A stretch of 56,993 nucleotides of DNA from a virus. Positions 4,489 to 9,230 of this stretch are shown one piece after another (position 1 is the first letter of the stretch; each line of letters starts with the position of its first letter). The notes beneath the pieces were generated by a model. It was not told the DNA's origin. It searched no databases and saw only the letters and a list, made by a program, of their open reading frames with translations. The DNA lies in the IMG/VR virus record IMGVR_UViG_3300036846_001227, positions 1-56,993 of that record; one strand, 5' to 3'. The translations under genes were made by a program, and so were the position numbers.

Positions 4489-5729
4489 GATCCGGTCTGC
4501 AAGATGGTTAGCCTTTCAGAGGAGCGGGTGACGGCGGTGTAGAGCCAGCGCCGGCGGAAGTCCCGGTCGTAGGCCATGAGCCGGTCGTCGATAACGACGA
4601 CACGCGGCCACTCCGATCCCTGGGCCTTGTGCGCGGTGATGGCGTAGGCCCAGTCGAACTCGACCTGGTCCTTGTTCTTCCAGGTCTGGTTAGTCTCCTT
4701 GAGGAGATCGGGATTGAAGTGGCACTCGAAGTGGTAGCGGGCGATCTTGACGCTAGGGTGGACGGTGCCGTCTACCAGCAAGTCGGCGGTGAAGTAGGGT
4801 AGGCCCTGGCGGTCCAGGTGGATGCGCCAGACGTTGACCATCTGGCCGTTGATAAAGCCTTCGCCGTAGTTGTTGCGGCAGCAGATGAGGGGTTCGCCGG
4901 GGCAGGGAGTGTGGCCGACGAAGCCATCCTTGGCCCGGCAGCGGCGGGTCACGGCGAAGCGGCTCTTGTGCCTCCCACATATGACCATGTTGTCGGGGTC
5001 GGTGATGATGTCCCAGACGGCCTCGCCCATGAGCGGCATGACGCGGACCGTGTCGCCGTCGCCCATGTGTGGCCGGATGGGCGAGCCCTGCCGGACCAGC
5101 CAGGCCAGGCGGTCCACGGGCGAGTTCAGGACGGAGCGGTGCGGCTCCGTCAGCCGGAAGTCGGGCTTCCAGTTGAAGAAGCCGGGATCGCCCTTGACCG
5201 GCGGCAGCTGGCCGTCGAGGTCGCCAAGGACGATGGTCGGGACACCCGTAGAAGTGATGTCCTGGACCATGCGGTCGGGCACCATGCTGGACTCGTCGAT
5301 GACCAGGAGGTCCAGGCTTTCGAGGAAGGCCGGCTCGAAGATGCCGGTGAGCTTGCCTTTCTCGTCGTGGCGTGGGTAGTACATCGCAGAGAAGAGGGTG
5401 CGTGCGCCTTCCATCCCCTTCTCCTGCATGACGCGGGCGGCCTTGGCGGTGTAGGCGGCGTAGCAGACTTCGATGGGTTTGGGGTCGAGGGCCTGGACGG
5501 CATGGTAGGCCAGGGTGGTCTTGCCGGTCCCTGCTCCGCCGTCGAGCAGGAAGAACCGGCTCCGCCCCGGCGGGACTGCCGGCTCGTGGCTGTAAGCTAT
5601 GTCCTCAAAGAGGGAGTCGATTTCGTTGAACGGGGTTGGTGGTGTGGTAGGTTGTGGCGGTTGGAGGTCTGCCCACCACTTCTTGATGGCGGCTAGGGCG
5701 GCTTGTTGTTGCTCAGATAATTCGATCAT
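4485..5729 (-). CDS. SF1 DNA helicase, Dda/RecD-like
   Basis: 414 residues from ATG 5729, chosen because it overlaps the polymerase stop (ATGA) and has GGAG nine bases upstream; an in-frame ATG at 5762 is less likely. Walker A is LLDGGAGTGKTT (about residues 61-72), Walker B is LLVIDESSM, motif III is VLGDLDGQLPP (Gln contacting phosphate), and the C-terminal motifs are AITAHKAQGSEWPRVVVID and LYTAVTRSSERL, diagnostic of the UvrD_C_2/Dda/RecD2 group. A 5'-3' helicase working with the polymerase and DUF3987 ATPase at the fork is the expected role. Confidence 0.88.
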   Translation of the reverse strand: MIELSEQQQAALAAIKKWWADLQPPQPTTPPTPFNEIDSLFEDIAYSHEPAVPPGRSRFFLLDGGAGTGKTTLAYHAVQALDPKPIEVCYAAYTAKAARVMQEKGMEGARTLFSAMYYPRHDEKGKLTGIFEPAFLESLDLLVIDESSMVPDRMVQDITSTGVPTIVLGDLDGQLPPVKGDPGFFNWKPDFRLTEPHRSVLNSPVDRLAWLVRQGSPIRPHMGDGDTVRVMPLMGEAVWDIITDPDNMVICGRHKSRFAVTRRCRAKDGFVGHTPCPGEPLICCRNNYGEGFINGQMVNVWRIHLDRQGLPYFTADLLVDGTVHPSVKIARYHFECHFNPDLLKETNQTWKNKDQVEFDWAYAITAHKAQGSEWPRVVVIDDRLMAYDRDFRRRWLYTAVTRSSERLTILQTGS

Positions 5730-6481
5730 GCTGCTTGGCTCCATTTGTGGACCTCGCCCCAACTGCTGGGTGAATACTTCAGGCTCACGGGGATGTAGAG
5801 CGGGTCGTCAAAAGGGATGCGGACCTGCATCGCCTGGATGATCTCGGGGAAGATGCCGGGGCAGAGGTCCTCTCGCACTTCAAGGAGGAGGCTGTCGTGG
5901 ACCTGTAGCTTTAGGCGGACAGAGTCGCGGGGGAACTTGGCCCTCACTTGGAGCATGGCGTGGTTGATGGCGATGGCGACACCCGATTGGCCGAGCCAAG
6001 CAAGGGCTTGCGGTAGCAAGGCCTCGGCGTTGTGGCCGTCGAGCCGCTCAAAGTAGAAGCGGCGGAACCCCCAGACGTTGCGGATGTAATGTTGCAGGCG
6101 CAGGAGGGTGAGGGTGCTCTCGTGCCACCGCCGGATACCGGGGTACTTGCCAAACCAGTAGTGCTGGAAGGCTTCGGCGATGGCGATGGTGGTGCCCAGC
6201 GTGGCCGCCAGGGTGCGGGCCTTGCCGCCGTAGTTGGTGAGGTGGAGGCCGGCCTTGAGCGCCTGGCGAGAGACTACCTTCTTGGCCCAGCCCGATACCA
6301 GGGCGGCGTTCTCGGTGTGAACGTCCAGGCCCTCTTGGAAGATGACCTTGAGGGCCGGCTCGTTGGCGCTCCACGCAACGATCTGGGCGTCTGCGCGATC
6401 GAAGTCCGCGTCTACTAATACCCACCCGGGGTCTGGCTTGATGAGAGAGCGGATGGGGGGGAGGTCAGGCTGGAAGGGCAT
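5726..6481 (-). CDS. DNA polymerase family A, C-terminal (palm/fingers) fragment
   Basis: 251 residues from ATG 6481, preceded by AAGGAAG. It holds all catalytic motifs of family A: motif A VDADFDRADAQIVAW (Asp26), motif B SRQALKAGLHLTNYGGKA (Arg72, Lys76, Tyr84-Gly85) and motif C KLQVHDSLLLEV (His195-Asp196). It begins with MPFQPDLPPIRSLIKPDPGW, the stretch that in intact enzymes directly follows the 'NLQN(I/L)P' strand. That strand ends the separate gene at 6829-8601. Together the pieces make one complete polymerase, so the gene is split, probably giving a two-subunit enzyme. The start overlaps the end of the intervening Cys-rich gene by 17 bases, so it is in the same operon. Confidence 0.88.
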   Translation of the reverse strand: MPFQPDLPPIRSLIKPDPGWVLVDADFDRADAQIVAWSANEPALKVIFQEGLDVHTENAALVSGWAKKVVSRQALKAGLHLTNYGGKARTLAATLGTTIAIAEAFQHYWFGKYPGIRRWHESTLTLLRLQHYIRNVWGFRRFYFERLDGHNAEALLPQALAWLGQSGVAIAINHAMLQVRAKFPRDSVRLKLQVHDSLLLEVREDLCPGIFPEIIQAMQVRIPFDDPLYIPVSLKYSPSSWGEVHKWSQAA

Positions 6482-6737
6482 CGTTCGCTTCCTTGGCCTC
6501 GAAATGTGCGCCGTCGGGGCCGCACAGGTCGATATGGGTGATGCCGGTTTCGCTTTCGTTGCGTTGCAGATAGCACTCGGGCCAGCGCGGCTTGCCGTCG
6601 ACCAGGGACATGACCTGTTGTGGGGAGGTGCATTGCGGCTCCTCGTAAAGCTCTTCATCGATGACGCACCAGCGGCAGTCGGTGCAGATCGGCGGCGCAG
6701 TTGTCAGGGTCACGTTTCGCGGGGATGGGTCGGGCAT
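6465..6737 (-). CDS. Cys-rich small protein between the polymerase halves
   Basis: 90 residues from ATG 6737, which has AGGGAG ten bases upstream; an ATG at 6773 without a clear Shine-Dalgarno would add 12 residues. The pattern C-x2-C-x2-C (CTDCRWC), CTSP, PECYLQR and CGPDGAHFE matches a small family common in phages of proteobacteria and suggests zinc binding. Function unknown. It is neither an intein nor a homing endonuclease, so it does not by itself explain the polymerase split. Confidence 0.7.
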   Translation of the reverse strand: MPDPSPRNVTLTTAPPICTDCRWCVIDEELYEEPQCTSPQQVMSLVDGKPRWPECYLQRNESETGITHIDLCGPDGAHFEAKEANDALPA

Positions 6738-6828
6738 GTCGTTGATACTCCCTACAGTTCCAGGTTTGTTCATGACACCAGTAACAAAGTGAAACTTTCT
6801 ATGCGTTCCCCTTTAGTCCCTTGCAGCT

Positions 6829-8601
6829 TTACTCCTCCATCCGAGGTAAGTTCTGCAAATTCCCAGCCTCCCCAAGGGCGGTGTGGTTCATCGAGAAGCG
6901 GTAGGTTTCGGGGCCGGCGACGTTGATGGCGGGGCGTAGCCGGCCATCGCGGCTGAGGCGCATGTCGAGGAAGTTCTCCTTGTAGACGGCGAGGGAGCGC
7001 ACAGCTTGGATGCGCTCGACCAGGGGCCGCAGGATGGGCCGCACGATCTTGAAGCGTTCAAGGGCGTGGTCGTTGACGGTGGGCTGGCGGGTCTTCCTGT
7101 GTAGGATGGGCTTGAGCCGGAGGTCTTCATAGAAGAGGCGCTGCATCTGTTGCGAGGACTCGACGTTGAGCGGATGCCCCACAGCCTCGTTGATCCAAGC
7201 CTGAGCCTCCTTGATCTGGCGCTCGACATCGGCCCGGTAGGTACGGCGGGCGGTATCGTCGAAGGCGAGGCCGGCGAACATCATCTCGAAGACAGCGGGG
7301 AAGAGGCTCATCAGGAACTCGTACTGCTCCCACAGCTTGTTGCTGTGAAGCATTTGCCGCTGCGCAGCAAATACCTCGTGTGTTCTCACGAGGTCTTCGC
7401 AGTTGTAGTGCCAGTATTGGAGTTCGTCGTGGATTGAGGGGTCCCAGCCTTTGCCGTCGTCCTTCCAGTAACGGTGGTAGTCACAGTAGATCGAGGAGCA
7501 GAATAAGAGGCTGTAGCTGCTGCCGCTCTTGCTTGTGCGGCCGGTGATGGGGTCGATCTTGCCGCCGAGCTGGGCCGGGAAGAGCGTGTGCTGAGCGACC
7601 ATGCTGTCGTGGGTGAAGCGGGGAAGCCAACCCCAGTTGTGGGCTATGACCTGACAGTCGTGGAGGCCGTTGTGGAAGAGGACAGGCCGGCGTCGCAGGT
7701 AATCGCGGAGGAGGAGCACGGCGTCCCGCTCTTCCTCTGGAGAGGCCCACCAATGGGGGTTGTCGCCGGCTCGATGAGCAAAAGGCACACAGCAAGCAGT
7801 GTGAGGATCAACAGCAAGGCCAAGGCAATAAATGCGAGCGTCATGTACACGTTCGGTGGAGTAGTCGTTCTCAACGTCGGCGGTGACGTAGGCGTCTTCG
7901 GGGAGCGTCGCGAAGTTGTCTCCCAGCCAGTCCCGTAGCTCGTGCAGCGAGCTAGGGACCGTGAAGCTCCAGGTGGGCCGTCGCACTTCCGGGTAGCGGG
8001 ACTCGCGAAGGGCTCGCTTGAGGTCATGGATGACGATCCCCTTCCACTGGTATTCACGGAGGACCGAGGCGGTGTGAACAGCGGGGATAAGTTTGATCCC
8101 CTTGCCATCCACTGGGCCGCCCGAAGCCTCCATGATGGAGCCGCGCCAAGACCTTATGCCAGTGTGCCCTGTAAGTGCCCAGAGGGCGGTGTTGCCCATG
8201 GCGATGATCAGGCGGGGCCGGAGGGCGTCGATGTCCTTCTGTAGCTGGACGAGGCCCTCGATCACCGGGCGGCGAGCACACCGGCCCGCGATCACGGTGA
8301 TGTCGGCAGCTAGGCGAGAGGCTGCATTGGCAAGGCTTAGGGTGTCGAGCTTGGGGGCATTCTTGGCCTCGGTCTTGGTGGCGAAGAACTTCTCGATCTC
8401 GTTGCCGGGGGGCCGCTCATGGCAGACGTTGGTGATGAAGAGTTGGGAGCGGAGGAGGCCGGCCGCACTCAACTCCTTGTCCAGCTCCCACCCGCTGATG
8501 CCGGAGAAGGGCCGCCCGGAGCGATCCTCCTCCTGGCCGGGCGCTTCCCCACACAGAAGTATTCCCCCAGGTGTTCGCGGCCCTTCTTGGATCAGACGCA
8601 T
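6829..8601 (-). CDS. Uracil-DNA glycosylase / 3'-5' exonuclease / polymerase A N-terminal half
   Basis: 590 residues from ATG 8601 with GGAAG upstream; it lies six bases past the dNMP kinase stop. Residues 1-200 are a family 4-like uracil-DNA glycosylase: GGILLCGEAPGQEEDRSGRP near the start, TNVCHERPPG, LIIAMGNTALWALTG, and AVHTASVLREYQ in place of the usual His-Pro-Ser motif. Next comes a proofreading domain with exo I VTADVEND, exo II LFHNGLHDCQVI and exo III HYNCEDLVRTHEV. The thumb and start of the palm follow, ending PETYRFSMNHTALGEAGNLQ plus NLPRMEE and a TAA stop. The active-site half is in a separate downstream gene. A glycosylase fused to the polymerase would put uracil recognition at the fork. 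Confidence 0.85.
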   Translation of the reverse strand: MRLIQEGPRTPGGILLCGEAPGQEEDRSGRPFSGISGWELDKELSAAGLLRSQLFITNVCHERPPGNEIEKFFATKTEAKNAPKLDTLSLANAASRLAADITVIAGRCARRPVIEGLVQLQKDIDALRPRLIIAMGNTALWALTGHTGIRSWRGSIMEASGGPVDGKGIKLIPAVHTASVLREYQWKGIVIHDLKRALRESRYPEVRRPTWSFTVPSSLHELRDWLGDNFATLPEDAYVTADVENDYSTERVHDARIYCLGLAVDPHTACCVPFAHRAGDNPHWWASPEEERDAVLLLRDYLRRRPVLFHNGLHDCQVIAHNWGWLPRFTHDSMVAQHTLFPAQLGGKIDPITGRTSKSGSSYSLLFCSSIYCDYHRYWKDDGKGWDPSIHDELQYWHYNCEDLVRTHEVFAAQRQMLHSNKLWEQYEFLMSLFPAVFEMMFAGLAFDDTARRTYRADVERQIKEAQAWINEAVGHPLNVESSQQMQRLFYEDLRLKPILHRKTRQPTVNDHALERFKIVRPILRPLVERIQAVRSLAVYKENFLDMRLSRDGRLRPAINVAGPETYRFSMNHTALGEAGNLQNLPRMEE

Positions 8602-8606
8602 GTCAG

Positions 8607-9230
8607 CTACTTCCGCGATGGCGAGCGAAGCGAGCCAGGGATGTCGAGGGGGAGGGGAACGTCGTGCGGGATAGTGGCCAGGGGGACGATGCCGAGGGCT
8701 GAGAGCTGGTCGAACATCGCGTCCTGCTGGCCCTCGTCGTTGACCAGGACGCCGTCGGGTTCGATCTCCTTCCACTCCTGCTCAGAGATGTGCTTGTCAC
8801 AGGTGCGGAGACCGGGCCGGCTGATGGTGAAGATTTTGCCGCCCGCCGCTCGCACCGCAGCCGCCTCATGGTGGAACCTCATGTCGTCGCAGACGACATT
8901 GCGGGAGCCGAGGAGTTTGAGGCGGGACTGCCAGATGCCGGACCAGAGGGTGCGGTCGATCAGGTCGCGCCACTCGGTGCCGAGGGTCTGCATGACGTGG
9001 CGCGGGGATTGACCCGCGAGGTAGACCGAGGGCGCGTCCTTGCGGCTGCCCAACAGCATAGCCTGGATGCTGTAAGGGGGCACACCTTGATAGTGGAGGA
9101 GGGCGGCGACCATCTCCTTGATCGGGGCCGCGAAGGGCAGCGGGAGGAAGCCGCAGGTGTGGGTGAGGATTGTGGCGGCGGTGGACTTGCCGCAGCCACG
9201 GGGACCGATAAAGGCGATGATCTGGGGCAT
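8607..9230 (-). CDS. Deoxynucleoside monophosphate kinase-like
   Basis: 207 residues, ATG after AGGAGG. Walker A is IAFIGPRGCGKSTAA at the N-terminus. The segments FAAPIKEMVAALL, RHVMQTLGTEWRD, and VVCDDMRFHHEA are typical of the phage dNMP kinase family (T4 gp1-like fold), where the Asp-containing DDMRF strand closes the site. It phosphorylates dNMPs to dNDPs for phage DNA synthesis and fits the replication operon directly upstream of the polymerase. Confidence 0.8.
   Translation of the reverse strand: MPQIIAFIGPRGCGKSTAATILTHTCGFLPLPFAAPIKEMVAALLHYQGVPPYSIQAMLLGSRKDAPSVYLAGQSPRHVMQTLGTEWRDLIDRTLWSGIWQSRLKLLGSRNVVCDDMRFHHEAAAVRAAGGKIFTISRPGLRTCDKHISEQEWKEIEPDGVLVNDEGQQDAMFDQLSALGIVPLATIPHDVPLPLDIPGSLRSPSRK

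Follow-up and report, generated by a model that had tools for sequence, protein, structure and literature searches.

A family-A DNA polymerase encoded in two genes that meet at a recurrent seam in the palm

Two polymerase genes in one operon

The virus record IMGVR_UViG_3300036846_001227 of IMG/VR (positions 1 to 56,993; this whole stretch of 56,993 nucleotides is referred to here as the window) carries a family-A DNA polymerase in two genes, a break to which an earlier note had drawn attention. The coordinates, lengths and gene order given in that note all held: the N-half of 590 residues (6829–8601) closes at NLQNLP, the C-half of 251 residues (5726–6481) opens before motif A, and a small Cys-rich gene of 102 residues (6465–6773) lies between them in the same operon, all on the minus strand. 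The product of the N-half (chain N) comprises a 3'-5' exonuclease, the thumb and the beginning of the palm, preceded by a uracil-DNA glycosylase (UDG) superfamily domain at residues 13–185 (8047–8565; PF03167, E=2.9e-18) that the note had overlooked. The product of the C-half (chain C) contains the remaining palm and the fingers. The initial third of the family-A polymerase domain lies on residues 454–586 of the N-half (6844–7242), matching PF00476 positions 6–132, and the C-half matches positions 141–371, so essentially nothing of the domain is missing.

Catalytic residues were placed by mapping on E. coli Pol I numbering, which is used throughout. Chain N carries the exonuclease residues D355, E357, D424, Y497 and D501 together with the polymerase residues R668 and Q677 and the NLQNLP motif (675–680; 6844–6861), the final conserved element before its C-terminus, GNLQNLPRMEE. 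Chain C begins with MPFQPDLPPIRSLIKPDPGW, immediately ahead of motif A (DADFDRADAQ, 6383–6412; its D26 is D705 and its D31 occupies position 710), and carries D705, R754, K758, Y766, Q849, H881 and D882; motif B lies at 6230–6268 (R72, K76, H80 at the 762 position, and Y84) and motif C, QVHDS, at 5891–5905 (H195, D196). Domain coverage and residue mapping on intact E. coli Pol I thus bear out the view that no catalytic part has been lost. As judged from this mapping, the whole active site would be present on neither chain alone, and the two chains together would complete it. The break falls between P680 and I689 of E. coli Pol I, or between P585 and I594 of Taq (by counting backwards from the aligned D610).

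The seam itself (6482–6843), which runs from the end of N-half conservation to the start of the C-half, corresponds to the E. coli 681–688 loop. Linkers at this point in fused relatives range from 0 to 62 residues. The AlphaFold2 model of one of these (L079) has a mean predicted local distance difference test (pLDDT) score of 94.2 and gives Foldseek matches to Klenow and Bst; its linker (about residues 529–544) is coil, and the ten-residue block 531–540 has the poorest pLDDT anywhere in the model, 75. When modelled alone, the C-half of the window forms a compact palm-fingers module (pLDDT 94.0) that matches Pol I and Taq. Judged by these linker lengths and models, the break sits in a length-tolerant surface loop. 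Shine-Dalgarno (SD)-like sequences are found on both sides, GGAGGAG within the terminal codons of the N-half (6832–6838) and AAGGA 8 nt 5' of the C-half ATG (6490–6494). The C-half starts 17 nt inside the Cys-rich gene, and the same overlap with the gap gene recurs in the related contigs L001, L002 and L051.

Membership of family A is supported by the PF00476 domain, by motifs A, B and C, all present, and by the Pol I-like fold of the models of the fused relative and of the C-half. The N-terminal UDG domain joined to an exonuclease-polymerase places the window in a UDG-PolA family. Glu710, Phe/Tyr/Leu762 and Glu883 are common in family-A polymerases, without being strictly defining. The window has none of these residues and carries Asp, His and Ser instead; Asp710 and His762 occur in all 114 aligned family members and Ser883 in 112 of them. 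These are family-specific variants, and what defines family A, namely the domain, the fold and the catalytic aspartates, is in place.

One seam across the UDG-PolA family

The same break is found in the three related contigs L001–L003, whose C-halves are 90–95% identical to that of the window and which also carry a version of its Cys-rich gene. Across these four sequences dN/dS was 0.06–0.10 for the N-half and 0.08–0.17 for the C-half, which argues that both are selected as proteins, and 0.23–0.47 for the gap gene. Two open reading frames thus cover the enzyme jointly and both are under strong purifying selection, which excludes decay of the halves; since the break is also shared, it is neither chance nor a sequencing indel but a real, recurrent feature. 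On these sequence grounds the split polymerase is very probably functional.

Family members were gathered by alignment-based scans of IMG/VR and bacterial genomes, counting distinct members with both halves readable, the window included (n=127). The polymerase is split in 61 and fused in 66. The position of the seam is identical in 61/61 split members: the N-half ends in NLQN(I/L)PKGDE or similar and the C-half starts with M..LPN(I/V)RK. Vibrio phage vB_VspS_VS-ABTNL-3, which is in culture, has its polymerase split here, with an unrelated 184-residue gene between the halves, and Microcystis phage Mel-JY34 and phage ctMlz233 (MW202489) carry a fused UDG-PolA. The earlier note had proposed a search for the break in related phages and had called the arrangement unusual; it is no rare one-off, as about half of the sampled relatives share it. 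Of the genes examined, 47/47 fused and 44/47 split ones have the UDG domain. R668, Q677, D705, K758, H881 and D882 are retained in 55/55 split and 57–59/59 fused sequences of the tree set; the catalytic residues are equally conserved in both forms. One family member, Caulobacter phage Kuura (L239, 2471–5875), is split elsewhere, near the end of the exonuclease domain and ahead of the thumb; two small genes separate the parts, and the N-part is annotated as a hypothetical protein.

A maximum-likelihood tree was built from 114 joined N and C sequences (55 split, 59 fused), with the linker left out. By parsimony it holds 15 changes between split and fused, at least 7 of them on supported branches, and separate trees of the N and C parts hold 13 and 17, with at least 5 supported on each; these were quick trees and the exact counts are soft. 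Forcing all split genes into one clade cost 1102 log-likelihood units and was rejected (approximately unbiased test, p-AU 3e-57), which makes a single origin of the split untenable. The tree does not in general give the direction of change. L081, split without a gap gene, is nested among the fused L022, L036, L039 and L159, and the fused L171 is nested in the split clade containing VS-ABTNL-3 and is most simply read as a re-fusion. The earlier note had held that fused relatives would refute the break; they exist, yet do not refute it, since the label has changed repeatedly on the tree. Distances in the N and C parts correlate in split phages (r=0.67; shuffled maximum 0.16). Pairs differing by more than 20 points across the seam made up 11% of split-split and 5% of fused-fused comparisons, a weak result for a recombination hotspot that shuffles the halves, because the most extreme cases come from L049, which bears an intein in its N-half.

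In 49/61 splits the C-half start overlaps the preceding stop or lies within 15 nt of it, and the N-half ends in codons that double as a Shine-Dalgarno sequence, such as AAAGGAGAT in L044. The predicted SD pairing of the N-half tail was stronger in split genes, with a median of −8.4 versus −5.65 kcal/mol in fused ones (p=4e-6), and the codon of the tail glycine ends in a purine in 38/43 split genes, 19/29 fused genes and 368/879 background cases. Programmed frameshifting or bypass is untenable as a general mechanism, as the gaps reach 2.8 kb and contain whole genes.

No gene of 45 residues or more lies in 18/61 seams. Elsewhere the cargo includes dUTPase (4), ribonucleotide reductase (3), ThyX, a DnaQ-like exonuclease, Lon-like domains, methyltransferases, a di-haem oxidoreductase (DHOR) and HNH endonucleases (L019, L058 and L087). 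The ribonucleotide reductase genes of about 575 residues are those of L121, L156 and L237, and the Lon-protease-like (Lon_C/ChlI) domains of L213 and L236 stand alone between the polymerase halves. The DHOR gene of 499 residues in L011 (2992–4488) is odd in a phage replication operon and is possibly an auxiliary gene or a misassembly. In the close pairs L044/L051 and L111/L109, the first member lacks and the second has a gap gene, located at the stop/start seam.

For the 102-residue Cys-rich protein of the window we found no Pfam or PHROG match, and tblastn against phage records returned nothing. Beyond L001–L003 the gene turned up in no relative's seam, L011, L161 and L012 included, and is therefore best read as cargo; a role as an obligate clasp is unlikely on the same grounds. 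The start homologous to that in relatives is probably at 6737 (MPDPSPRN). About 95 nt at 6738–6828, between the stop of the N-half and this conserved start, are absent from L001–L003 and put the Cys-rich gene farther from the Shine-Dalgarno sequence of the N-half. A Zn-finger-like fragment after the Cys-rich gene of L003 looked HNH-like by eye and found no Pfam support.

Beyond the polymerase, the minus-strand genes of the window begin, in order of transcription, with a deoxynucleotide-monophosphate-kinase gene (8607–9230) ahead of the N-half. A UvrD_C_2/AAA helicase gene follows the C-half and reaches down to 4485, its ATG overlapping the C-half stop as ATGA, and is itself followed by a DUF3987 gene.

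The two-chain reading and the origin of the break

Together, PF00476 coverage, catalytic completeness and the single operon support the proposal of a family-A polymerase made of two chains, with the break in the palm. We put a probability of roughly 0.86 on the reading that the phage encodes such an enzyme from coupled cistrons, with chains that associate non-covalently in the palm at a seam that has switched recurrently. From the sequences we infer co-assembly, activity and translational coupling of chains N and C. Both chains would be translated from one operon message. Chain N would bring the UDG domain, the proofreading exonuclease, the thumb and the start of the palm with R668 and NLQN; chain C would bring the motif A strand, the fingers, motifs B and C and both catalytic aspartates; and the two would join via the palm to form a single active site. 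Such assembly is likely, because split gp43 of phage 25 and split NrdA of phage Aeh1 are active. In the UDG-PolA family, polA would have switched repeatedly between fused and split at loop 681–688, the seam behaving as an ordinary operon junction that gains and loses genes and that in the window carries the small Cys-rich gene.

Three results weigh against parts of this reading. The difference in SD pairing loses significance when relatedness is taken into account and is a trend rather than proof, because only five phylogenetically independent pairs are available. Fused genes show an N/C distance correlation (r=0.60) similar to that of split ones, which means that shared descent alone may explain the correlation. 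Lastly, the N and C trees conflict in places, and the counts of change are blurred by recombination.

How the seam was first opened is a separate matter. A free-standing homing endonuclease may have inserted into the NLQN region, made the split and later been lost or replaced, as in the case of Aeh1 nrdA; this concerns origin only and is compatible with a two-chain enzyme. HNH-encoding group I introns are known in phage DNA polymerase genes, at site 674 in SPO1, SP82, Bastille and Pf-WMP3 and at site 676 in phiL7 (PMC3428280), which map to P674–L676 at the NLQN motif, 4–6 codons upstream of the seam. This proximity and the HNH_3 genes detected by Pfam in the three seams named above make a homing endonuclease a plausible trigger. 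IPA-HNH genes, moreover, often adjoin DNA polymerase genes (PMC10448857), and the gap gene of L051 is HNH-like by eye (no Pfam match), its sister L044 having none. HNH genes occur, however, in only a minority of gaps, bare stop/start overlaps in L017, L044, L049, L111 and L138 argue against homing as the only cause, and the gap gene of L051 may have entered a site already split. Entry into an open seam is allowed by the bare splits and by the L044/L051 pair, and Edgell et al. raised the same possibility for gp43 of phages 25 and 44RR (PMC2988022). In the window no recognisable endonuclease lies between the halves, the gap gene having no Pfam match. Overall, we give a homing origin somewhat less than an even chance. 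The earlier note had suggested a past homing-nuclease or intein event; the former part is plausible but unproven, and for the latter no intein was found at the seam.

More speculatively, the loop after NLQNIP could be an evolutionary switch point in a large family of phage replicases. There polA would open and close time after time, since the Lys-Gly-Asp/Glu codons of the tail readily make a ribosome binding site and chain ends are tolerated in the loop. Its nucleotide-metabolism cargo, or the destruction of the conserved NLQN target of homing endonucleases, might then keep the seam open. We regard this extension of the two-chain reading as doubtful.

It is improbable that the halves have ceased to be one polymerase, with chain N serving in repair through its UDG and exonuclease, and chain C in another role or none. 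The UDG and the exonuclease could work alone, and a compact fold is predicted for chain C by itself, but R668/Q677 in chain N and D705/K758/H881/D882 in chain C are invariably kept in split genes, the halves stay ordered in one operon, and apparent reversion to the fused state is seen in places, as in L171.

A self-splicing intron or an intein in the seam, yielding a single-chain polymerase after splicing, is more improbable still. The nearby intron sites speak for it, and introns were suggested for the split polymerase of MEP401 (PMC10580990) and named for that of Mic1 (PMC7156551). However, Rfam matched no intron in the window or in any of 15 relatives, many of the splits are bare overlaps and leave no sequence to be spliced out, and the C-half has its own start and Shine-Dalgarno sequence. 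Chain ends and seam gave no Hint/intein match and the ends lack intein motifs; the only intein is internal, in the split N-half of L049 (2054–4492; PF14890, residues 416–622), between the exonuclease and the thumb. We therefore reject both, and the Rfam and Pfam searches agree with the earlier reader, who had seen no signature of either. Finally, although the window is a metagenomic contig, an indel or misjoin in an intact polA is next to impossible given the purifying selection on both halves, equivalent starts and stops, the identical break in L001–L003, one cultured phage and 61/127 family members, and gaps that hold differing genes or none.

Relation to known split polymerases

Split phage polymerases as such are already known (gp43A/B, MEP401, Mic1). 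A recurrent, cargo-bearing seam across the whole UDG-PolA family appears undescribed: the open-access literature, to which our search and hence any claim of priority is confined, yielded no description of the UDG/His762 family, of repeated switching at a single position or of cargo genes housed there. The family provides a natural series of replicative polymerases in which the palm is made as one chain or two at a single defined loop, many times over. This makes testable the assembly of an active site from two proteins, the cost of splitting and mobile endonucleases as a cause of fission, and it bears on split polymerase annotations formerly ascribed to introns. Gene calling is affected as well, as are virome surveys with full-length PolA as their marker, which would filter out halves and His762 enzymes; one survey retained only Phe, Leu or Tyr at 762 (PMC9069017) and would have excluded the His762 clade.

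In Aeromonas phages 25 and 44RR, gp43 is split (43A/43B), and its halves are described as co-purifying and active (Petrov, Ratnayaka and Karam, 2010, as cited in PMC2988022). Like the polymerase of the window, gp43 is a replicative phage polymerase in two genes, its gap being a homing endonuclease or an untranslated spacer; it differs in belonging to family B and in having been described for single lineages, whereas the UDG-PolA seam is of family A, recurs in many members of a family and is diverse in cargo. The same paper cites nrdA of phage Aeh1, split by mobE and still functional (Friedrich et al., 2007), as an essential phage enzyme encoded in pieces. The enzyme is a different one, the window insert is no recognisable endonuclease, and relatives of the window are often without an insert.

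Closer comparisons come from family A. The DNA polymerase gamma of the Mic1 cyanophage (ORF86/ORF85) is likewise broken beside motif A, and its ORFs are described as the N- and C-terminal moieties of the motif; it differs in its gamma type and in the intervening 298 bp, which its authors called an intron (PMC7156551). The Methylophilales phages MEP401/402 (PMC10580990) and Alcaligenes phage QDWS535 also have a family-A polymerase in two open reading frames, with a small one between in MEP401 and none in QDWS535. Their break, in contrast, comes about 15 residues farther on, past the IKTLF/ILEMF strand and immediately ahead of motif A, and their chain N begins at the exonuclease, lacks a UDG part and belongs to a different PolA clade. 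Mel-JY34 and ctMlz233 share the family and the UDG-PolA domain order of the window, with C-half identities of 37–39%, but encode it as a single chain, fused through a linker at the seam.

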